Source: Chryseobacterium sp. OV279 (GTDB lineage: Bacteria; Bacteroidota; Bacteroidia; Flavobacteriales; Weeksellaceae). Taken from it: a stretch of 64,000 bases of DNA. Below the pieces are notes generated by a model that saw only the letters and a program-made list of their open reading frames with translations, was not told the DNA's origin and did not search any database. Positions 4,220-14,667 of this stretch are shown here, in pieces (position 1 is the first letter of the stretch; each line of letters starts with the position of its first letter). The stretch spans positions 710,371 to 774,370 of the forward strand of contig NZ_FQUD01000002.1 of NCBI RefSeq assembly GCF_900128945.1. The letters are read 5' to 3'. The translations under genes and the position numbers were made by a program.

Positions 4220-5518
4220 TTATTTTACGATAAGTTTTTTCGTTTCCGTACTGCCTCCGAAAGTGATTTTTACGATATAGTTTCCGGCAGTAAGGTGAGA
4301 TAAGTTCAGATCCTGCTTGTAGAAACCAGCCTGATTGCTAAGTTCTGCAGTATGTACTATTTTCCCGGTAAGGTCATAGACTTCTATGCTTCCTTTATTG
4401 TTTGCTTTTTCTTTAACATCAAAAAGAACAGTTACTTTTTTATCAGCCGTTGTTGGGTTTGGATAAATCCCGAAAGAAGCTTTTTTGCTTACTTCTGTGA
4501 TCCCTAAAGTGGCTGTAATCTTCTTGTATTTGAAATACATATTTCCGGTTTGGGTACCTTCATTTGAGATGAAATACATTCTGTAATAGTCTGTGCCCTG
4601 TTTTACATAATATACTGCGTCAGAATATACTCCCGAAGTAGGCTTCCATGAATGACCGATAGTCGTAATATTACCGGAGAATGCTGTTGAAGCCGGAAGA
4701 GTAGAAGTTGCCGTTTCCTGAGTTTCAGGTCTTACTTTGGCTACTGAAATATTCGAATTTTGGATAACTCCGGACATTCTGTATTTCATGGTTTGCGGAT
4801 TTCCCTGTGGGTCGGTATAAGGATAATCTGTGTAATATCTTGTAAACATCATGTCCCAGTTAGATCTTGCAGGCTCAAGGTTGGAAACCTTTTCACCGGT
4901 AGCAAATGAGAAGTAGTTGAAATAAGCATCATCAGATCCGTTGGCAACTGTTTTGGTTTGTGTAGCATCCCATGAAGAGGTTGCTGCATTCCATTTTGCA
5001 TATTTAAAAGTATATCCTCCAAAATAATCTTCGATCATAAATTTCACAGACGCCCCTGAAGCGTACTGCATGATGAAGATTACTTTTCCTTCTACGTGAT
5101 GGTTTAAAGGGTTATATTCTCCCCATCCATACGTTGCAGATCCTTGTTCAAATGCACCTTCCTGCAGATAGGTCGTGTTGTCAACATTAAAAAGTGGAGC
5201 TCCGTAAGAAGCGATGCTATTGCTTGTGATGTTGTTCCAGTCAGCCGGATTGGCAGATGCCTGATACACTTTGATATCATAAGCATCATTAATTCTTGTT
5301 CCAAAATTAGTTGCAGATGCTCTGTAAAAAGCTACATCCCATGAATTAGCGGGCTGTGATACTATATTATTGGCACTAAAGTCGAAAAAAACGCGGTTCT
5401 GGTAACTGCTCCCCATAGACAGATTAACTGTCGTGTATCCATTAGCATCCGTCTGTGCCAGTACTGTTTGTTGAACTGAAAGTGCAAACAGAGAGGTCAA
5501 AAGTAATTTTGTTTTCAT
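4220..5518 (-). CDS. Secreted HmuY-like heme-binding protein with T9SS sorting domain
   Basis: This 432-residue exported protein has three parts. The first is a signal peptide (MKTKLLLTSLFALSVQQTVLAQ). The second is an HmuY-like region of about 310 residues, including the WDVAFYRAS and NWDMMFTRYY strands typical of that family. The third is a C-terminal type A T9SS sorting domain starting near FGIYPNPT and ending GNYIVKITF...KKLIVK. HmuY proteins bind heme outside the cell and pass it to a TonB receptor. Here the T9SS tail predicts secretion or surface anchoring rather than a lipid anchor. The promoter carries two Fur-like boxes shared with the neighbouring T9SS gene and, in part, the receptor operon. 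Heme binding is inferred; the axial ligands were not identified. Confidence 0.85.
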   Translation of the reverse strand: MKTKLLLTSLFALSVQQTVLAQTDANGYTTVNLSMGSSYQNRVFFDFSANNIVSQPANSWDVAFYRASATNFGTRINDAYDIKVYQASANPADWNNITSNSIASYGAPLFNVDNTTYLQEGAFEQGSATYGWGEYNPLNHHVEGKVIFIMQYASGASVKFMIEDYFGGYTFKYAKWNAATSSWDATQTKTVANGSDDAYFNYFSFATGEKVSNLEPARSNWDMMFTRYYTDYPYTDPQGNPQTMKYRMSGVIQNSNISVAKVRPETQETATSTLPASTAFSGNITTIGHSWKPTSGVYSDAVYYVKQGTDYYRMYFISNEGTQTGNMYFKYKKITATLGITEVSKKASFGIYPNPTTADKKVTVLFDVKEKANNKGSIEVYDLTGKIVHTAELSNQAGFYKQDLNLSHLTAGNYIVKITFGGSTETKKLIVK

Positions 5519-5545: not shown

Positions 5546-5564
5546 ATTTAGAATGATTCCACAA
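5546..5564 (-). promoter_or_regulatory. Fur-like box, proximal copy (near +1) of the HmuY-like T9SS gene
   Basis: The plus-strand sequence ATTTAGAATGATTCCACAA matches the first 13 defined positions of the palindrome ATTTAGAATnATTCTAAAT and differs at three positions in the second half. It overlaps the 3' end of the -7 element and the likely transcription start. Its start lies 31 bp from that of the distal copy, the same spacing as in the neighbouring promoter. Confidence 0.6.
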
Positions 5565-5569
5565 AAGTA
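5562..5569 (-). promoter_or_regulatory. -7 promoter element of the HmuY-like T9SS gene
   Basis: Read on the minus strand this is TACTTTTG, a match to TAnnTTTG. It lies exactly 7 nt downstream of the distal Fur-like box and about 44 nt upstream of the ATG at 5518. Confidence 0.65.
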
Positions 5570-5576
5570 TATAATT

Positions 5577-5595
5577 ATTTTTAATCATTCTAAAT
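5577..5595 (-). promoter_or_regulatory. Fur-like box, distal copy (-33 region) of the HmuY-like T9SS gene
   Basis: ATTTTTAATCATTCTAAAT matches 16 of the 18 defined positions of ATTTAGAATnATTCTAAAT. It covers the -33 region, so a bound repressor would block RNA polymerase. I recall a Fur box of this form being described for the related genus Riemerella; I cannot verify that here. Confidence 0.65.
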
Positions 5596-5661
5596 AAAAA
5601 CATGATATTTATCCTGTTTCATTATAATTCCGTGATCAATACTGGTATTTTTGGCATAAAA

Positions 5662-5694
5662 AAAAGCCGGCTGGAAAACTTCCAGCCGGCTTTA
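5662..5694. terminator. Intrinsic terminator of the 272-aa T9SS gene
   Basis: The 11-bp GC-rich stem GCCGGCTGGAA/TTCCAGCCGGC (5666-5676 with 5680-5690), with loop AAC, is extended by AAA/TTT and followed on the minus strand by T-rich sequence. It lies just downstream of the minus-strand gene ending at 5719. Confidence 0.9.
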
Positions 5695-5718
5695 TAAAGG
5701 GATACTGTCTAATAAACC

Positions 5719-6537
5719 TTATTTTTTGATGAACTTAGATTTTACTACTGAACCTTCTGCAGTTTCCACAAGCATATAGTAAACGCCTGTATGCAATCCA
5801 CTGATGTCAAATTTTTGTGCTTTTAATTTTCCTTCAGCAACTTTTTGTCCTGAAGCAGAATAAACTTCAATATTTTTAGGTTCTGTTCTTGTGATAAATT
5901 CTAAAGCTGTGTTGCTTGAATTTACTGCAAATTTGAAGTTCTCATTTACTTTAGCAGTATCATTAACTCCTAAAGAAGAAGAAGCTTTATATACTACATC
6001 ATCAACCTGTATTGCTACGTGAGTGGCTGAAGGTGTAAATTTAAAAACGATATATGAACCTGTAGAAGCTGGAATATTAACAGTGATATTTTGTGTTACT
6101 CCAATTGTCGTTACATTAATAAGATTCCCTACTGGTACGAAAGTAGTCATGTCACTAGGGCTTGTAGAAACCCCGATCTGAATGGTTCCAGGACCTGGAG
6201 AAGGAGATACCAATGTCGTTGTGAATGTTAAAACTTTATTTCCTGTAGGAGCCTCTATCTGAGGAGAAATAAGGTAAGAAGAAGCTGTTGCATTATTACC
6301 GGCATAAGCCTGGATGAATTTCTGAGTATTATCATTTTCAAGTGCAGCTACAATCATTCTAGGCGGTGCTGGTGGAAATGCACCCGTAATAGGAGCAACT
6401 ACTGCAGCCCAGCCTCCCTGTGGAAATGTGGTGGTTCCAATAGTAAAGTTGTTGAAATTTTCATTAAGCGCAGCTACTTGTGCATTCGCTGTAACAGCCG
6501 TAAACATTAAAGTTCCTAAAAGTAGTTTTAATTTCAT
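5719..6537 (-). CDS. Secreted T9SS type A sorting-domain protein of unknown function
   Basis: This 272-residue protein has a signal peptide (MKLKLLLGTLMFTAVTANAQ), a beta-sandwich region of about 160 residues and a C-terminal T9SS sorting domain ending YYMLVETAEGSVVKSKFIKK. The middle begins ENFNNFTIGTTTFPQGGW and continues with SSYLISPQIEAPTGNKVLTF, the pattern of choice-of-anchor J/MAM-like adhesion or carbohydrate-binding domains. It shares a near-identical dual Fur-like promoter with the HmuY-like gene downstream and lies beside the heme receptor operon. That makes a role in iron or heme capture plausible, though no such function is recognised in the fold. Confidence 0.8.
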   Translation of the reverse strand: MKLKLLLGTLMFTAVTANAQVAALNENFNNFTIGTTTFPQGGWAAVVAPITGAFPPAPPRMIVAALENDNTQKFIQAYAGNNATASSYLISPQIEAPTGNKVLTFTTTLVSPSPGPGTIQIGVSTSPSDMTTFVPVGNLINVTTIGVTQNITVNIPASTGSYIVFKFTPSATHVAIQVDDVVYKASSSLGVNDTAKVNENFKFAVNSSNTALEFITRTEPKNIEVYSASGQKVAEGKLKAQKFDISGLHTGVYYMLVETAEGSVVKSKFIKK

Positions 6538-6548
6538 AACGTATCTTT

Positions 6549-6567
6549 ATTTAGAATTATTCCACAA
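6549..6567 (-). promoter_or_regulatory. Fur-like box, proximal copy of the 272-aa T9SS gene
   Basis: ATTTAGAATTATTCCACAA is nearly identical to the proximal box at 5546-5564 and starts 31 bp from the distal copy, the same spacing. It overlaps the end of the -7 element and the predicted start of transcription. Confidence 0.6.
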
Positions 6568-6572
6568 AAATA
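6565..6572 (-). promoter_or_regulatory. -7 promoter element of the 272-aa T9SS gene
   Basis: Read on the minus strand this is TATTTTTG, a match to TAnnTTTG. It is 7 nt downstream of the distal Fur-like box and about 28 nt upstream of the ATG at 6537. Confidence 0.65.
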
Positions 6573-6579
6573 AGTATTA

Positions 6580-6598
6580 ATTTTTAATTGTTCTAAAT
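6580..6598 (-). promoter_or_regulatory. Fur-like box, distal copy of the 272-aa T9SS gene
   Basis: ATTTTTAATTGTTCTAAAT matches 15 of 18 defined positions of ATTTAGAATnATTCTAAAT and covers the -33 region. The layout is the same as in the other two promoters of the island. Confidence 0.6.
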
Positions 6599-7000
6599 AA
6601 TCATAAATTTAACGTTTAAATTTTATTATTGATCCCATACAAAATCATTGCTCTTTCATTACAGGAAGAGATGAATCAGGTATGGAAAGTAGAAGAGGGA
6701 GAAAACAAGTTGTTTGAAGTGAGAAATACACTCACAGGATTATTTTAGTATGACTGCGAATGATTATAAAACCATTATCAGCTTCCAGTCTCCCTATTCC
6801 GGCTTCCTATCCACTAATTTTTTATTGCCTGCCCCAGATTCATCTGTTTCTAATAAATAACTCTCTTTTTGCAGTTTATTTTAATTTGAACGAAAAAAAT
6901 TATGATAAATATCAATTTTTGATTAAAAATATTTACACAAGCGCTTCTCTAGAATGTTGTTTGTTGTGAAAAGGCAAAAAAAGAAATAATATTTTCCATT
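6599..7000. other. Divergent intergenic region before the heme receptor operon
   Basis: About 400 bp separate the two divergent Fur-like promoters. A 25-codon frame (6671-6748, starting MNQVWKVEEGENKLFEV) and a 69-codon plus frame (6760-6969) are present, but neither has a recognisable product or start context. I treat the region as non-coding. Confidence 0.4.
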
Positions 7001-7019
7001 ATTTTTAACTATTCTAAAT
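7001..7019 (+). promoter_or_regulatory. Fur-like box of the heme receptor operon
   Basis: ATTTTTAACTATTCTAAAT matches 15 of 18 defined positions of ATTTAGAATnATTCTAAAT. It ends 7 nt before the -7 element, exactly as in the two divergent promoters. Only this single copy is seen here. It would repress the whole receptor-to-HmuS operon when iron is plentiful. Confidence 0.6.
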
Positions 7020-7026
7020 AAAGCGT

Positions 7027-7034
7027 TATATTTG
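7027..7034 (+). promoter_or_regulatory. -7 promoter element of the heme receptor operon
   Basis: TATATTTG matches TAnnTTTG perfectly. It is 15 nt from the ATG at 7050, which predicts a very short 5' leader of about 10 nt. Confidence 0.65.
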
Positions 7035-7049
7035 CCAAAATTTTACTCT

Positions 7050-9164
7050 ATGAAGAAGAAAGTGCTTTCCGTTCTATCACTATCCATTGCCTTTTGGATG
7101 AACGCACAACAAAAAGATTCTCTTAATAAAAATAAAATAGAGGAAGTTGTCATTACAGGACAATATACACAGCAGTCGATTAATAAATCTATATATAAAG
7201 TTGACGTAATTGATGCCCAGCAGATCAAAAATATGGCTGCAACCAATGTGGCAGATGTTTTAAATCAAAGTCTTAACATACAAATTACACCAGATACCCG
7301 CTCAGGAAATTCTACCGCTAATATCATGGGGCTTGACGGGAATTATGTAAAAATATTAATTGATAATATTCCGGTAGTAGGAGATACAGGACTTGGAAGC
7401 AATATTGACCTAACCAAACTTTCCCTGAATAATGTAGAAAGAATTGAGATTGTAAAGGGAAGTATGGGGGTAGAATATGGAAATGGAGCAGTAGCCGGAG
7501 TCATCAATATTATTACCAGAAAAACAAGCACAAAAAAGGTTGCTGTAAAAGCATCTCTTCAGGAAGAAACGGTAAGAGATAACTACGACCTTAAGAAGAA
7601 AGGAAAGGGAAGACATATTCAGAACTTTAACGTAGATTATAATATAGACAACAATTGGTTTGCGAATATCAGTTTCAATCATAACCAATTCATGGGGTAC
7701 GAAGGCGAGAGTAAAGGATATAAATATTTTGGGACAGACCCGGAGATAAAAAGAGGCTATGAATGGAATCCGAAGGATCAATACGACGCTTCTGCATTGA
7801 TAAGATACAGCAAAAACAAAACTTCATTCTATTATAAACTTTCTTATCTGAACGAGAAATTTAATTTTTATAATCCTGAGACCAACAGGATTCCTCTTAA
7901 CGATGGTCTGGGAGGCGTTGTTTACCAGAGCAGAGATAGAGAATACAATACCAACAGATGGATTCATCAGTTCAATATCCAGGCAAATTTAGGGGATATC
8001 CGATATATGGGAGACTTTTCTTATCAGACCCAGGATAGAAAATACTTTGATTACAACTACGATATTCCTAACAGATCTGTTACCAGTAAAGATGAAAAAA
8101 GATCATATTATCAGACAGATATCGTGTATTCAAGAGGGATGTTCAGTAATTTTCTGAACAATAAAACTTTTGATTTCCAGCTTGGTTATGAGCTGGATTA
8201 TACCAATGGCCAGGCAGCGCTTATTGCAGGCCAGTTTTTTGGTGAATCTGTGAAAAGAAAAATCTTTACCTATTCCAATTTCCTTTCAGCGGAATGGAAT
8301 ATCTCAGATAAATTCTCATTAAGACCAGGGGCAAGACTTTCAGTAAGTGATATGTTTGATAACCAATTCAATTACTCCCTTTCTGCGAGACTGAAAACTT
8401 CTGACAACTCAAATCTGAGAGCTGTTGCCGGGACGGCCAACCGTTTTCCTACCTACGATGAGCTGTTTACTTTCTTTGTGAATATTAATCATGATGTTCA
8501 GGGAAATCCTGATCTGAATCCTGAAAAAGGGTTTTCTGCAGGTCTTTTCTGGGATCAGAATTTTTCAGCCGCTAATGACTGGAAAATAGCTTATAGTGTT
8601 AATGCACTCTATCTGGATGTACAGGACAGAATAGAAATGGTGATGATAAAAAGACCTTCCACCTATAAATATATGAACCTCAATACCTACAGAAACATGC
8701 TTTTATCTGCAAACGTAGATTTTAGAAAAGATCAGTTGGCATTTTCTTTAAGAGGTTCGGTGAATGGTACTTCTGTGTCATTAAATGAATTGGAACATAC
8801 TTCTCCTACAGATTTCCAATATCTTGTACAGGCAGGAGCATCCGTAAATTATAAACTGAAAAATATAGGGACAGGCTTTTCTCTATACTATAAATATACA
8901 GGTCCCGGAAGAAACTATGTATTGGAAAATGATATCGAAGGTTTCAGACTTGGTAAAACAGACGGTTTTCATATGATGGATTTTATCGTAAGTCAGCCAC
9001 TTTGGAAAGATCATCTTGAAGTGTCTGCGGGGGTGAAAAATATATTTGACGTTACAAGTCTGAATTCTACTTCCAGTGCAGGAGCTGGCCATATTGCAGG
9101 GGCAGACCGTATTAATTTATATTACGGAAGAAGCTATTTTGCAAGATTAATTTATCAATTTTAA
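7050..9164 (+). CDS. hmuR: TonB-dependent heme/hemoprotein receptor (HmuR-like)
   Basis: This 704-residue outer-membrane receptor has a signal peptide (MKKKVLSVLSLSIAFWMNAQ). A TonB box/plug follows (IEEVVITGQ, then NVERIEIVKGSMGVEYGNGAVAGVINI across about residues 95-150). The 22-strand barrel ends in aromatic YFARLIYQF. The segment NRFPTYDELF ... GNPDLNPEKG corresponds to the FRAP and NPNL motifs of heme receptors. A His lies between them (NINHDVQ), the position of the heme ligand in HemR-type receptors. The frame is open to a TTG at 7032, but ATG 7050 starts the signal peptide. It heads an operon with HmuY, HmuTUV and HmuS, under a Fur-like box. Confidence 0.9.
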   Translation: MKKKVLSVLSLSIAFWMNAQQKDSLNKNKIEEVVITGQYTQQSINKSIYKVDVIDAQQIKNMAATNVADVLNQSLNIQITPDTRSGNSTANIMGLDGNYVKILIDNIPVVGDTGLGSNIDLTKLSLNNVERIEIVKGSMGVEYGNGAVAGVINIITRKTSTKKVAVKASLQEETVRDNYDLKKKGKGRHIQNFNVDYNIDNNWFANISFNHNQFMGYEGESKGYKYFGTDPEIKRGYEWNPKDQYDASALIRYSKNKTSFYYKLSYLNEKFNFYNPETNRIPLNDGLGGVVYQSRDREYNTNRWIHQFNIQANLGDIRYMGDFSYQTQDRKYFDYNYDIPNRSVTSKDEKRSYYQTDIVYSRGMFSNFLNNKTFDFQLGYELDYTNGQAALIAGQFFGESVKRKIFTYSNFLSAEWNISDKFSLRPGARLSVSDMFDNQFNYSLSARLKTSDNSNLRAVAGTANRFPTYDELFTFFVNINHDVQGNPDLNPEKGFSAGLFWDQNFSAANDWKIAYSVNALYLDVQDRIEMVMIKRPSTYKYMNLNTYRNMLLSANVDFRKDQLAFSLRGSVNGTSVSLNELEHTSPTDFQYLVQAGASVNYKLKNIGTGFSLYYKYTGPGRNYVLENDIEGFRLGKTDGFHMMDFIVSQPLWKDHLEVSAGVKNIFDVTSLNSTSSAGAGHIAGADRINLYYGRSYFARLIYQF

Positions 9165-9179
9165 AACTAAGCTATCATT

Positions 9180-10286
9180 ATGAAATATTTAAAAATAGTA
9201 TCTCTTCTGTCCATCATCGCTTTGCAGTCATGTCTGTCAGCAGATGAAGATCCGGTGCCGGTTGCTCCTCTTACGGGATCAGTAGTAGATGTTGCAGTAG
9301 GAGGACCTACAGAACCTAACCAGGTGTGGATTGATTTAAGTGACTACAAAAATGCGGTTACTAATACAAGAACAGACTGGGACCTTGGGTTTTATACAGG
9401 AGATGCATTTCGCGTAGTGATCAATGGATCTATAGCAATGACAGTTGCAAAAGTTCCTAATGCCACAGATATCAACATGGTAAAGGAATCAGATGTTGCT
9501 GCACTGAAAACAACGGCTCAGGTGGGAACATTCAATGCTTCCAATATGCAATATGTTGATAATCCTATTGGAAATTTCCTGACACAAACTACAGGAATCG
9601 ATGCCATTAAAGAAAACGATGCAGAAAATCCGATTTATCTGGTGAACATGGGAAGGGATGTTCCACCTTCCAGCAATATTGGAGCCGGATCTGTAAATTT
9701 ATCAGGAGCTGCGAGAGGCTGGAAGAAAGTGCAGATTCTACGTGCCCTGAACGGATACAAAATACGTTATGCTGATGTAGAAGCCACAACTTATAAGGAA
9801 TATCTTATCGCAAAAGATACAGAGTATAATTTTACCTATTTCAATCTTAAGACCGGAGCACCCGCTAAGGTACAGCCTAAAAAGAAAAAATGGGATTTAG
9901 CATTTACAACGTTTACCAACGAAGTATTCTCAGCTCCGACTACCAGTGCGGGAAGCTATTTCTATGCTGATTTTATTATCACCAATACGCTGGATGGCGT
10001 TGGAGTATATCAGGTAAATGCAGGAGGTAATCTTGAACAGGCTTATAATGCATTCAAATTAAGTGATGTAGATCAGTCTAAATTTATTTTTAATGACCAG
10101 CGAGCTCTTGGAGATAAATGGAGAACGACTACCGGAACACCGGATATACCACAACCATTTGTATACTCAGACCGCTTTTTTGTCCTAAAAGATGCAGAAG
10201 GATTTTATTTTAAATTGAGATTCAATGCTATGAAAGACAAAAATGGAAACCGTGGTGCTTCCAATTTTGAATTTGACCCTTTATAA
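9180..10286 (+). CDS. hmuY: HmuY family heme-binding lipoprotein
   Basis: This 368-residue surface lipoprotein has a type II signal peptide with lipobox LQSC (Cys18). The HmuY fold follows, marked by the paired strands TDWDLGFYTGDAFRVVING near the N-terminus and KKWDLAFTTFTNEVFSAP in the second half. HmuY captures heme from host or environmental hemoproteins and delivers it to the HmuR receptor. The gene is 15 bp downstream of the receptor gene in the same operon. Unlike the HmuY-like protein at 4220-5518, it has no T9SS tail, so the island encodes two differently anchored HmuY-type proteins. Heme ligands were not assigned. Confidence 0.85.
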   Translation: MKYLKIVSLLSIIALQSCLSADEDPVPVAPLTGSVVDVAVGGPTEPNQVWIDLSDYKNAVTNTRTDWDLGFYTGDAFRVVINGSIAMTVAKVPNATDINMVKESDVAALKTTAQVGTFNASNMQYVDNPIGNFLTQTTGIDAIKENDAENPIYLVNMGRDVPPSSNIGAGSVNLSGAARGWKKVQILRALNGYKIRYADVEATTYKEYLIAKDTEYNFTYFNLKTGAPAKVQPKKKKWDLAFTTFTNEVFSAPTTSAGSYFYADFIITNTLDGVGVYQVNAGGNLEQAYNAFKLSDVDQSKFIFNDQRALGDKWRTTTGTPDIPQPFVYSDRFFVLKDAEGFYFKLRFNAMKDKNGNRGASNFEFDPL

Positions 10287-10308
10287 TCAATCAAATAAAT
10301 CGTATATC

Positions 10309-11187
10309 ATGAAAAAAATAATTCTTGCAGCTTCCATTCTGATGGCAGTGTATTCATGCAAAAAAGAAGAAGGTGCAAAAAAAGAAAATACAACAGAAAC
10401 CTCTGCTGAAGCTCCGAAAAGCAACAATAAAATTGTTACACTAAGCGGTGGAGTTACAGAAATTGTAAGTGCATTGGGCCATGAAAAAGAAATCGTAGGA
10501 ACAGATGTTACAAGTACTTATCCTGAAACTTTAAAAACTACAGCTAAAGGACTTGGTCATGTAAGATCAATGACGATTGAGCCTATCATGGCGGTAAATC
10601 CTACTTTAATTTTAGCTTCAGAAAAAGATATCAATCCTGAATTGATGACCAAGATTAAATCTTCAGGAATCAAAGTTGAGGTTTTCAAACAGGATTACAC
10701 CGTAGATGGAACCAAAAAACTAATTGCTGATGTAGCAAAAGCGGTTGGAAATACAGAGTATCAGAAATTAAATGATAAAATCGATGCTGATTTAAAGCAA
10801 ATCCAGCCTATCGCTAAAAAACCTAAAGTATTGTTCATCTACGCAAGAGGAAACATGCTGATGGTTTCAGGAACAAAAACACCAATGGATGCACTGATCA
10901 GCCTTGCCGGCGGACAGAATGCCGTAACCGATTTCGAAGATTTCAAACCTTTGACACCGGAAGCAGTCGTAAAAGCTAATCCGGATGTTTTATTCTTCTT
11001 CTCAACCGGCCTTGAAGGTGCAGGAGGAAACGAAGGAGCACTTAAAATGCCGGGCGTAGCACAAACCAACGCAGGTAAAAACAAGAAGATCATCGCAATG
11101 GATGGAGGGTTAGTTTCAGGTTTCGGACCTAGACTAGGAGAAGCAGCATTAGGATTAAACAAACTTTTAATTGAGAACACAAAGTAA
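10309..11187 (+). CDS. hmuT: Heme ABC transporter substrate-binding lipoprotein (HmuT)
   Basis: This 292-residue class III periplasmic-binding protein has lipobox VYSC (Cys17), a charged linker, and a Fe/B12-type binding domain beginning KIVTLSGGVTEIVSALG. Characteristic parts are the EIVGTDVTSTYPE loop, a long connecting helix around residues 120-165, and the GFGPRLGEAALGLNKLL C-terminus. It would accept heme released by the TonB receptor and feed HmuUV. The ATG at 10309 gives the signal peptide; the frame is open further upstream into the HmuY gene. It overlaps the permease gene by 17 bp. Confidence 0.9.
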   Translation: MKKIILAASILMAVYSCKKEEGAKKENTTETSAEAPKSNNKIVTLSGGVTEIVSALGHEKEIVGTDVTSTYPETLKTTAKGLGHVRSMTIEPIMAVNPTLILASEKDINPELMTKIKSSGIKVEVFKQDYTVDGTKKLIADVAKAVGNTEYQKLNDKIDADLKQIQPIAKKPKVLFIYARGNMLMVSGTKTPMDALISLAGGQNAVTDFEDFKPLTPEAVVKANPDVLFFFSTGLEGAGGNEGALKMPGVAQTNAGKNKKIIAMDGGLVSGFGPRLGEAALGLNKLLIENTK

Positions 11188-12211
11188 ACTGTACTTTTAT
11201 CTAATAATAGGTGCCGTACTGCTTGCTATCATAGCAGTACTGGCGCTTAATACTGGAGTCTACGACTTCGGAGGAATGTCACCCTTCAAAGTTTTATGGC
11301 AATATATAAAAGGAGATCCCGACTTATCTATAAGCAACAAATATGTGATCTGGGATGTGCGGGCAGCAAGGATCATTATGGCCATTTTAATAGGAAGCAT
11401 GCTGGCGGTTTCCGGAACCGGTCTGCAGGGGCTTTTCAAAAACCCTCTGGCGACAGGAGATCTGATAGGTCTTACATCCGGGGCAACATTACTGGCGGCA
11501 ATTGCCATTGTTTTAGGAGGACATTTCAAACAGTATCTTCCTGAAGCCGTACAATTTTCAATAGTAGGCATTGCAGCATTTATTGGTTCCCTTTTATCCA
11601 TGATGCTTGTATACAGGATTTCTACGGCTGGTGGAAAAACCAATGTAGTGATGATGCTTCTTTCCGGAGTAGCCATTACCGCAATCGGGTTTTCGATCAC
11701 CGGATTTTTGATCTATATTTCAAAAGATGAGCAACTCAGAGACCTTACGTTCTGGAATCTGGGAAGTCTGGCGGCAGCGACGTGGACGAAAAATATTATT
11801 TTAGCAGTCGTTCTGGTCATTTCTTACATCATTCTGCTTCCAAAGGGAAAGGCTTTAAATGCCATGATGCTTGGGGAAAAAGATGCACAGCATTTAGGAA
11901 TCAATGTGGAAAAGCTTAAAAAGCAGATCATTATTATTGTCGCATTAATGGTGGGAACATGTGTGGCATTTTCAGGAACGATAGGATTTGTAGGGCTTAT
12001 TGTCCCTTACATTCTAAGACTTTTGTTTAAATCCAATTACACATTTATCCTGCCTTTATCAGCCATATGCGGAAGTATATTATTGTTGACGGCAGATACG
12101 TTCAGCAGAAGTATTGTAGAACCTTCGGAACTTCCGATCGGGATTCTTACAGCACTGATGGGAGGTCCTATTTTTATTGCTATTTTAGTTAAATTCAAAA
12201 AATCTCTGTAA
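11171..12211 (+). CDS. hmuU: Heme ABC transporter permease (FecCD family, HmuU)
   Basis: This 346-residue FecCD/BtuC-type permease has about ten membrane helices. Family motifs include RAARIIMAILIGSMLAVSGT, QGLFKNPLATGDLIGLTSGA and GTIGFVGLIVPYILRLL, the last before the cytoplasmic coupling helix. It forms the inner-membrane channel for heme with the HmuV ATPase. Translation appears to start at TTG 11171 within the end of hmuT, because no in-frame ATG precedes the first helix; this suggests translational coupling. It overlaps the following ATPase gene in a TAATG junction. Confidence 0.9.
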   Translation: MRTQSKLYFYLIIGAVLLAIIAVLALNTGVYDFGGMSPFKVLWQYIKGDPDLSISNKYVIWDVRAARIIMAILIGSMLAVSGTGLQGLFKNPLATGDLIGLTSGATLLAAIAIVLGGHFKQYLPEAVQFSIVGIAAFIGSLLSMMLVYRISTAGGKTNVVMMLLSGVAITAIGFSITGFLIYISKDEQLRDLTFWNLGSLAAATWTKNIILAVVLVISYIILLPKGKALNAMMLGEKDAQHLGINVEKLKKQIIIIVALMVGTCVAFSGTIGFVGLIVPYILRLLFKSNYTFILPLSAICGSILLLTADTFSRSIVEPSELPIGILTALMGGPIFIAILVKFKKSL

Positions 12212-12981
12212 TGATAAAGGCACATCAGATCAGTTACAAACACAAAGACTTCCATATTCTGGACGGGATAGATGTTGCTCTTGGATACGGTGAATTTCTT
12301 GCCATTGTAGGCCCGAACGGAGCCGGAAAATCAAGTTTGCTAAGCGTTTTGGCTAATGAGATCAAGTCCAGACAGAAAATACTGTTTAAAGATAAAGATA
12401 TCACGCAATGGGATGTGAGAGAACTGTCTCAGCACAAGGCTAAATTTTCTCAGCACAACAGCAATGATATTCCGCTTGAAGTAAAAGATGTGATCATGAT
12501 GGGAAGGTATCCCTATTTCGATGCCCAACCCGGAAAAGAAGATCTTGAAGCCATGAATAATATGATGTATGAAACCGACATCTTTCACCTTAAAGACAGA
12601 GAATACAACACCCTGTCCGGAGGTGAAAAGCAGCGTGTACATCTTTCAAGAGTCATGGCGCAGCTCGAAAATGAAATTGCCCACAAGCTGGTCTTTCTCG
12701 ATGAGCCGCTGAATAATTTGGACATCAAACATCAGTATAAGGCGTTGGAAATTATTAAAAAATTCACCAAAAAAGCCAACAGCGCTATCGTTGTACTGCA
12801 TGATCTGAATCTGGCAGCCCAGTTTGCCGACAAAATTTTATTAATGAAATCAGGAAAGGTGTCTGCATACGGAACGCCACAGGAAGTATTCACAGCTGAA
12901 AATATCAGTCATGCCTATAATTTTCCGTGCACCATCTGCGAACACCCAATTACCAATAACCCAATGATCATTTTTGGATAA
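12211..12981 (+). CDS. hmuV: Heme ABC transporter ATP-binding protein (HmuV)
   Basis: This 256-residue ABC ATPase has Walker A GPNGAGKSS (residues 34-42), Q-loop in KFSQHNSND, signature LSGGEKQRV, Walker B LVFLDEP and switch His in VVLHDLNLAAQFADK. The closest pattern is the heme importer ATPase family (HmuV/ChuV). It energises heme uptake through HmuU. The start ATG overlaps the hmuU stop codon in TAATG, and the gene ends 2 bp before the methyltransferase gene. Confidence 0.9.
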   Translation: MIKAHQISYKHKDFHILDGIDVALGYGEFLAIVGPNGAGKSSLLSVLANEIKSRQKILFKDKDITQWDVRELSQHKAKFSQHNSNDIPLEVKDVIMMGRYPYFDAQPGKEDLEAMNNMMYETDIFHLKDREYNTLSGGEKQRVHLSRVMAQLENEIAHKLVFLDEPLNNLDIKHQYKALEIIKKFTKKANSAIVVLHDLNLAAQFADKILLMKSGKVSAYGTPQEVFTAENISHAYNFPCTICEHPITNNPMIIFG

Positions 12982-13638: not shown

Positions 13639-14667
13639 ATGAGCACGTTAGTTAATGATTTAAAGGAAAAATGGGAAGCTCTGAAAGCAGAAAATCCACA
13701 TATAAGAATAAGAAACGCTGCGGCACAGTTAGGCGTAAGCGAAGCTGAATTATTGGTAACAAGCATTGGAGAAGGCGTTACGGTTCTGAATGCTGATTTC
13801 CCTGCTATCCTTACCGAAGCAGAGAAACTTGGAAAAGTTATGGCCCTTACCCGCAACGACGAATGCGTGCACGAAAGAAAAGGAATTTACCAGAACGGTG
13901 ATTTCAGCAGTCCTCATGCACAGCTTTTCGTAGGAGAAGATATTGACCTTAGAATATTCCTTAACCACTGGAAATCTGCATTCGCAGTAGTGGAAGGAGA
14001 TAAAAAAAGCCTTCAGTTTTTTGGAAAAGACGGTCTTGCCCTTCATAAGATCTATCTGACAAAAAACAGTGAGGAAGCAGCTTTCGATGCGATTGTAGAA
14101 CAGTTCAAGGCTGAAGATCAGAATCAGGCATTCGCTGTTGAGGCAGTGGCTCCAAAAGCTCCTGAAAAAGCAGATGCTGAAATTGATGCGGAAGGATTCA
14201 AAAAAGCATGGACAGAATTAAAAGATACCCACGATTTCTTTATGATGACAAGAAAATTCGGGGTAAGCAGAACTCAGGCATTAAGACTGGCTCCGGAAGG
14301 ATTTGCTAAAAAAATCGATAATGCTAAAGTGGTGAATGTTCTTGAAGATGCTTCAGAAAAGAATATTCCAATTATGGTATTCGTTGGAAACAGGGGAATC
14401 ATCCAGATTCACACCGGAAATGTGAAGAAAACACTTTGGCACCAGCAGTGGTTCAATGTAATGGATCCGGATTTCAACTTACACCTTGATGTGACAAAAA
14501 TTGCAGAAGCATGGATCGTGAAGAAACCTACTGAAGACGGAGAAGTAACGGCTATCGAAGTATTCAACAAAGAAGGAGACTTCATCGTTCAGTTCTTCGG
14601 AAAGAGAAAGCCGGGAATCCCTGAACTTCAGGAGTGGAAAGATCTCGTAGCAGAATTAGAGAAATAA
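13639..14667 (+). CDS. hmuS: Hemin-degrading factor / heme utilisation protein (HmuS/ChuS-like)
   Basis: This 342-residue cytoplasmic protein has two tandem repeats of the HemS/ChuX domain, matching E. coli ChuS (342 aa) in length. The first repeat carries ALTRNDECVHERKGIY, the family's signature, and DLRIFLNHWKSAFAV. The second carries NRGIIQIHTGNVKKTLW, HQQWFNVMDPDFNLHL and VFNKEGDFIVQFFGKRKPG. Family members bind heme and either open the ring or pass it on. It is the last gene of the receptor-to-hmuS operon, followed by a terminator. Whether it degrades heme or only carries it cannot be told from sequence. Confidence 0.9.
   Translation: MSTLVNDLKEKWEALKAENPHIRIRNAAAQLGVSEAELLVTSIGEGVTVLNADFPAILTEAEKLGKVMALTRNDECVHERKGIYQNGDFSSPHAQLFVGEDIDLRIFLNHWKSAFAVVEGDKKSLQFFGKDGLALHKIYLTKNSEEAAFDAIVEQFKAEDQNQAFAVEAVAPKAPEKADAEIDAEGFKKAWTELKDTHDFFMMTRKFGVSRTQALRLAPEGFAKKIDNAKVVNVLEDASEKNIPIMVFVGNRGIIQIHTGNVKKTLWHQQWFNVMDPDFNLHLDVTKIAEAWIVKKPTEDGEVTAIEVFNKEGDFIVQFFGKRKPGIPELQEWKDLVAELEK

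Follow-up and report, generated by a model that had tools for sequence, protein, structure and literature searches.

Predicted Fur operators in a rigid two-box layout at the haem-uptake promoters of Chryseobacterium sp. OV279 and its relatives

Introduction

The closest described counterparts of the promoters reported here are those of Riemerella anatipestifer, a duck pathogen of the same family, in which gel shifts with purified Fur, the iron-sensing repressor, covered four promoters, including those of hmuR and sprT, and in which the Fur box of hmuR was given as ATTTAAAATTATTCTAAAT (PMC5609570). The haem receptor gene rhuR of this bacterium and the divergent gene rhuH have a common 122-bp promoter region with a Fur box, and both deletion of fur and mutation of the Fur box derepressed the gene divergent from the receptor gene (PMC11967795). 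The Fur box of the rhuB promoter, ATTTAGAATTATCCTAAAT, is bound by Fur in a metal-dependent manner with a reported dissociation constant of 4.3 nM (PMC10986502). Here we describe five Fur-like boxes at three promoters of a haem island in Chryseobacterium sp. OV279. They lie in a stretch of 64,000 nucleotides (contig NZ_FQUD01000002.1, positions 710,371 to 774,370), called the window throughout.

Like the rhuH/rhuR region, the island combines the same 19-mer consensus with a haem receptor gene that is divergent from a gene for a secreted haem protein (PMC5609570, PMC11967795), and it shares with the rhuB promoter the type of box and the association with a haem receptor gene (PMC10986502). Control by Fur and iron has been demonstrated in R. 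anatipestifer. Passages of the R. anatipestifer reports mention one Fur box for the shared promoter (PMC11967795) and one for rhuB, which belongs to another receptor (PMC10986502), in contrast to the two boxes 31 bp apart in Chryseobacterium. The island also resembles the HmuY/HmuR haem-uptake systems of Bacteroidota, in which a TonB-dependent receptor is combined with HmuY-family haemophores. The hfp operon of Flavobacterium psychrophilum is iron-repressed (PMC9331221), and the HmuY of F. columnare is secreted by the type IX secretion system (T9SS) and has a T9SS tail (PMC9618737); the word "box" is absent from the former text and the term "Fur box" from the latter. The window differs from both in that a further HmuY-like gene, with a T9SS tail, lies close to hmuR and has a two-box promoter to itself. 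No paper on Chryseobacterium and Fur was found among the open-licence PMC literature.

Results and Discussion

Layout of the Boxes in the Window

The three promoters precede gene 1 and gene 2, which are on the minus strand and encode predicted secreted proteins, and hmuR, which is on the plus strand and encodes the receptor. A pattern search with the consensus ATTTAGAATnATTCTAAAT found five boxes in the window, compared to an average of 0.31 in shuffled sequence; no shuffle out of 100 gave as many as five. The elements are listed below; mismatches are to the consensus, and "split genomes" are the six in which an insert separates the promoters of gene 2 and hmuR.

5546-5564, minus strand: predicted Fur box A of gene 1, over the probable start site (about 5557); 3 mismatches
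5562-5569, minus strand: -7 element TACTTTTG of gene 1, as read from the sequence
5577-5595, minus strand: predicted Fur box B of gene 1, over the -33 region and 7 nt before TAnnTTTG; 2 mismatches
6549-6567, minus strand: predicted Fur box A of gene 2; 3 mismatches; 17 of 19 columns invariant in the split genomes
6565-6572, minus strand: -7 element TATTTTTG of gene 2; 8 of 8 columns invariant in the split genomes
6580-6598, minus strand: predicted Fur box B of gene 2; 3 mismatches; 19 of 19 columns invariant in the split genomes
7001-7019, plus strand: predicted Fur box of hmuR, 7 nt before TAnnTTTG; 3 mismatches; 19 of 19 columns invariant in the split genomes
7027-7034, plus strand: -7 element TATATTTG of hmuR; invariant in 37 distinct compact regions and in the split genomes

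An earlier note on this DNA had described a palindrome in five copies. The five places stand, but the palindrome exists as a consensus only, from which each copy is two or three mismatches away. Per copy, only six or seven of the nine base pairs are symmetric; in four of the five boxes one half-site is perfect and the other altered, and the better half of the box at 6580-6598 has one mismatch. The altered half of box A overlaps the -7 element TAnnTTTG.

The spacing claimed in the same note is exact. The boxes at 5577, 6580 and 7001 each end 7 nt before TAnnTTTG, and at both minus-strand promoters the copy starts are 31 bp apart. TAnnTTTG is the sigma-A -7 box of F. psychrophilum, at -12 to -5 (PMC9723704), and by that position the transcription start sites would lie at about 5557, 6560 and 7039, which places box A of both minus-strand promoters over the presumed start site, as the note had proposed; box A overlaps the -7 element as well. 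All boxes lie within 100 bp of their own start codons and overlap promoter elements, the most distant box end being 77 bp away.

Conservation and the Shared Divergent Promoter

The layout was followed in 48 of 49 named loci of relatives, with up to four mismatches allowed per box; L056 of a Roseivirga (30% identity) was excluded. Of 139 gaps between a box and a -7 element, 129 measure 7 nt, and 87 of 90 box pairs have a spacing of 31 bp. In 44 of the 48 relatives, the inner box nearest hmuR is flanked on both sides by opposed -7 elements, 7-9 nt away. Read from its sequence, this arrangement is one shared divergent promoter for hmuR and its neighbor. The exceptions are L008 and L015, which are split, L033, and L044. 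Because hmuR shares one two-box promoter with its neighbor in so many relatives, the likeness of the three window promoters reflects largely common descent and, besides descent, most likely control by Fur.

In an alignment of compact regions anchored on start codons (44 loci, with L033 and L051 dropped for odd start calls and 37 distinct regions remaining), box A is invariant at 15 of 19 columns, box B at 14 of 19, and TAnnTTTG at 8 of 8, compared to 6 of 12 columns between the boxes, 3 of 7 in the 7-nt spacer, and 8 of 28 in the remainder. Box A of gene 1 has 17 of 19 columns at 97% or more among 42 distinct modules, a value that is inflated, as in a companion profile of 40 sequences, by selection of the sequences for their box match; the start-anchored alignments are fairer.

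The complete 50-bp module with two boxes was found in 184 of 320 family genomes with zero control matches. Tallied by genus, it is present in 165 of 173 Chryseobacterium genomes, 18 of 23 genomes of the genus labeled g11, 1 of 2 of g32, and none of the other 30 genera. Gene 1 or gene 2 accompanies all of 30 module loci, and hmuR lies within the flanking 3 kb in 29 of them. Two genomes, G084 and G227, have three copies of the module each.

Boxes Elsewhere in the Genome and Family

The earlier note had asked for a scan of the whole genome with the motif, in which the box proved to be enriched. At three or fewer mismatches, the genome has 45 box places versus 20 for the reversed control, and at two or fewer 10 versus 2; across 25 family genomes the latter threshold gave 173 versus 38 places (summed from the table), including 3 versus 3 in G305 and none in G186. 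Outside the window there are 40 sites, among which 27 lie between genes and in front of a start codon at most 200 bp away (9 of 20 in the control), 9 are inside called reading frames (9 of 20), and 10 have a TAnnTTTG starting within 19 nt (1 of 20). Two of the nine in-frame sites, L081 and L103, precede the likely true start on re-reading. Without any mismatch, the strict layout of box (outer bases included), 7 nt and TAnnTTTG occurs at only three places in the genome, which are the three haem promoters; two or fewer mismatches give 21 matches on both strands, compared to 9 in the control.

An iron-related family is encoded within 250 bp of 11 of the 40 sites. These neighbors include TonB receptors at six sites (L078, L079, L080, L081, L089, and L091), ferritin (L111), aconitase (L108), a Pfam peroxidase read as KatG (L093), and, below cut-off, a HutZ-like protein (L096) and a protein like 2,4-diaminobutyrate (DABA) decarboxylase (L103). 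For this comparison 35 of 39 listed neighbors were scanned, four of 60-147 residues were left out, and three proteins from L081 and L103 were added. No obvious zinc gene was seen among the 38 scanned proteins, a result obtained without a separate search for a Zur regulon. At L103:1501-1519, the Fur-like box is located between the siderophore-type DABA-decarboxylase-like gene and a divergent gene for a TauD/VioC-like oxygenase. Elsewhere in the genome, the N-terminus of the protein encoded at L124:1579-3018 reads like that of a type II Cas9.

Fur as the Probable Regulator

Taken as a whole, the evidence is best explained if the boxes are operators of Fur, and we regard this as very probable; the earlier note, which had proposed Fur from the type of palindrome and the target genes, is supported on this point by the published box, the presence of one clear Fur, the sites at iron genes, and conservation in relatives. 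The consensus of the window 19-mer equals the predicted consensus Fur box of R. anatipestifer, ATTTAGAATTATTCTAAAT. The genome encodes one clear Fur (L005:1432-1908), whose five best PDB matches are Fur proteins and whose best NCBIfam model is also Fur, below cut-off. A search of 24 other genomes, each from a different genus, found a match to this Fur in all of them, with identities of 56-90%. One of these genomes (G189, Fur 86% identical) carries the exact published hmuR box of R. anatipestifer and is presumably a Riemerella. Among the genes that high iron represses most strongly in Elizabethkingia anophelis are those for a hemin-degrading protein, a transport permease, and a DABA decarboxylase (Table 2 of PMC7221216, in which the direction of the effect is read from the respiratory genes of the same table); iron repression of such haem- and siderophore-type genes agrees with the proposed role of Fur.

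Several observations weigh against this interpretation. The boxes are degenerate, and the start sites are placed by analogy with F. psychrophilum. The position counts of the scattered genomic sites exceed the control only modestly, and 29 of the 40 sites have no clear iron gene nearby by these scans. Because 2 of 20 control sites likewise precede TonB receptors (only two of 13 control neighbors were run through Pfam and the others were judged by eye), a TonB receptor alone is not taken as proof of Fur control. A second group quoted a different Fur box, GATAATGATAATCATTATC, for R. anatipestifer strain YM (PMC7976709), and the Fur of Porphyromonas gingivalis reportedly does not bind the Escherichia coli box and acts non-canonically (PMC6613475), which makes extrapolation across the phylum unsafe.

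Under the proposed mechanism, metal-bound Fur would, as long as the cytoplasm has enough iron, occupy box B in the -33 region. At gene 1 and gene 2, it would also occupy box A and thereby cover the -7 element and start site. This occupancy would exclude RNA polymerase, so that the genes would be repressed by promoter occlusion. The 31 bp between boxes correspond to about three helical turns, a distance at which two Fur dimers would sit on the same face of the helix and might cooperate. When iron is scarce, Fur would leave, and gene 1, gene 2, hmuR, and the operon of the haem importer would be transcribed together.

Alternative Explanations

Boxes of Fur-family regulators resemble one another, and the genome has two further members of the family besides Fur, so that the boxes might instead be read by L006 or L007, for example as the zinc regulator Zur. 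Two proteins match PF01475 over cut-off, one of which is L006, and L007 is just below. NCBIfam ranks Zur first for both, with all scores below cut-off, and L006 is closest to solved Zur structures; at L006:487-1884, its gene follows one that reads like a cation-diffusion zinc exporter. The Zur label of L007 is unsure, its best solved-structure match being called Fur and Zur coming second. Against such control, the other genomic sites are near ferritin, haem peroxidase, aconitase, and a siderophore-type decarboxylase rather than obvious zinc genes, and the same 19-mer is bound by Fur in R. anatipestifer (PMC5609570, PMC10986502). Control by Zur or its like is therefore very improbable in our estimation. 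We consider it even less credible that the inverted arms serve as an RNA or DNA structure or as a recombination site instead of a repressor site. The gene 1 boxes do hold exact 13-base inverted arms (5546-5558 and 5583-5595, plus strand coordinates), but these arms span a promoter, their sequence is that of the published Fur box, and single boxes occur near iron genes elsewhere; moreover, a scan that covered ten proteins of the window found no recombinase. Both explanations were set aside on these grounds.

A more serious alternative, though still an unlikely one, is that the layout was merely inherited through promoter duplication, with the box over the -33 region as the working operator and the second box having little or no function. 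Consistent with it, the gene 1 and gene 2 modules are near-copies, the hmuR promoter of the window has one box only, and in the Epilithonimonas locus L042, which yielded no gene 2, it is gene 1 that diverges from hmuR. Some conservation of box A would also follow from its partial overlap with the -7 element by itself. However, box A has 15 invariant columns of 19 in the 37 distinct compact promoters, compared to 8 of 28 outside the listed elements, and the 31-bp spacing is kept in 87 of 90 pairs, both of which weigh against this alternative.

The Probable Split of the Shared Promoter

In the clade of the window, the promoters of gene 2 and hmuR are separated by an insert:

6600-7000, no strand assigned: insert of about 400 bp, present at this locus in six of the 173 genus genomes, the window genome included

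A DNA search of the 173 genus genomes with the insert gave a match in 45. Beyond the window genome, at least five of these (G072, G133, G049, G100, and G114) have a long match in the same position, and more may do so, as only three candidates per genome were scored. The other matches are at most about 70 bases long. The named split loci are L015 of C. oleae, which includes the G072 stretch, and L008, which includes the G133 stretch. Within the insert, 157 of 401 columns are invariant among the six genomes and none of the 383 19-base windows is fully so. From these comparisons, the insert appears to have split a shared promoter, with each half keeping a box. The older form was probably one 50-bp two-box promoter common to two divergent genes, because the compact form is commoner and is also present in the outgroup genus Epilithonimonas; this order of age follows from parsimony rather than from a tree.

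A Second Conserved Dyad

A further conserved element borders the gene 1 module:

5599-5618, no strand assigned: second conserved dyad, approximately ACAnGATnnnnATCnTGT (here AACATGATATTTATCCTGTT), adjoining box B of gene 1

The dyad was sought in 45 regions for which the start of gene 1 and the end of box B served as anchors. A lenient pattern, written after the sequences had been seen, finds it in 44 of 45, and the stricter patterns GATnnnnATC and GATAnnTATC are present in 31 and 3 of 45, respectively. At three or fewer mismatches, it occurs at 15 places in the genome of the window versus 3 for the reversed control; eight of the 15 are inside reading frames, and the neighbors show no clear theme. 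A related sequence, TGATAAATATCA, is located at 6903-6914 upstream of hmuR and overlaps the 19 bases of the insert that are best conserved. The TGATnnnnATC core resembles the sites of CRP/FNR regulators, and the genome encodes 10 Crp-type helix-turn-helix proteins over cut-off. We also considered a terminator hairpin, but in seven relatives, which have TGAT....GTC, one pair of the minus-strand hairpin would be missing. We thus lean, weakly, toward a dyad that acts as DNA.

It is possible, although less likely than not, that the 50-bp module is one integrated switch, with two Fur dimers three turns apart on a shared divergent promoter, fixed through most of Chryseobacterium. At gene 1, the module would be joined to the second dyad, so that a secreted haemophore would answer to iron and to a second signal, and the insert in the C. 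oleae clade would have ended the coupling between hmuR and gene 2 and supplied the region upstream of hmuR with a dyad of similar type.

Genes of the Haem Island

The genes served by these promoters, and those following hmuR, are:

4220-5518, minus strand: gene 1, HmuY-like protein with a T9SS sorting tail (Por_Secre_tail, 2.3e-15)
5719-6537, minus strand: gene 2, T9SS cargo with a choice-of-anchor J/jelly-roll domain (NCBIfam choice_anch_J, 5.6e-14)
7050-9164, plus strand: hmuR, TonB-dependent receptor, likely of haem type (plug and barrel domains)
9180-10286, plus strand: HmuY-family protein gene downstream of hmuR (Pfam HmuY, 3.3e-24)
10306-12981, plus strand: haem-type ATP-binding cassette (ABC) importer, comprising binding protein, FecCD permease, and ATPase (profile scan)
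13639-14667, plus strand: HemS/ChuX-type haem-handling protein (profile scan)

The HmuY assignment of gene 1 is through its homologues and a profile comparison. Pfam HmuY was found in 6 of 23 homologues (best E-value 6.2e-12), the window's own copy having no match at E ≤ 1, and an hhalign comparison with the HmuY alignment gave 96.7% (E = 3.6e-10). The structure model of gene 1 is poor, with a predicted local distance difference test (pLDDT) score of 69.8, and a fold search with it returned no clear match. The model of gene 2 (mean pLDDT 82.6) is a jelly-roll, for which the best solved Foldseek match is a CBM4 carbohydrate-binding module (3.7e-8), with the K1-K3 cleaved-adhesin domains of the gingipain Kgp among many further matches (5.1e-7 to 7.3e-5); its product is a possible binder of sugar, haemoglobin, or red cells. 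Identity of either protein with RhuH may still hold but found no support in the searches. In the PDB, phmmer gave no match to gene 1 or gene 2 at E ≤ 1 beyond T9SS tails, and RhuH was not among the 50 listed Foldseek matches of either model, the presence of its entry 8XJC in the searched copies being unverified.

For hmuR, the NCBIfam model TIGR01785 (TonB-hemin) scored 2.9e-25, below cut-off, and the TonB-B12 model scored higher, likewise below cut-off. In its best segment, the receptor is 100% identical to that of C. oleae, to which this Chryseobacterium genome is close. The island also encodes a methyltransferase-like protein, and a gene for an Rrf2-family regulator is found upstream of it (2065-2565 of the window).

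Significance

The kind of switch proposed here is already known. It would be an ordinary iron switch with an unusually rigid layout, and known Fur biology is not overturned. What is added are the fixed 50-bp two-box module, its split, and the neighboring dyad, of which no description was met in the covered parts of the open-licence PMC literature. With these results, a Fur box known from a single duck pathogen is extended to 165 of the 173 searched genomes of Chryseobacterium, and the module provides a rigid, searchable signature of haem islands in 184 of 320 family genomes. Two T9SS cargo proteins emerge as likely participants in the response to iron starvation, and the natural split of the shared promoter would offer a clean comparison of coupled and uncoupled haem uptake.

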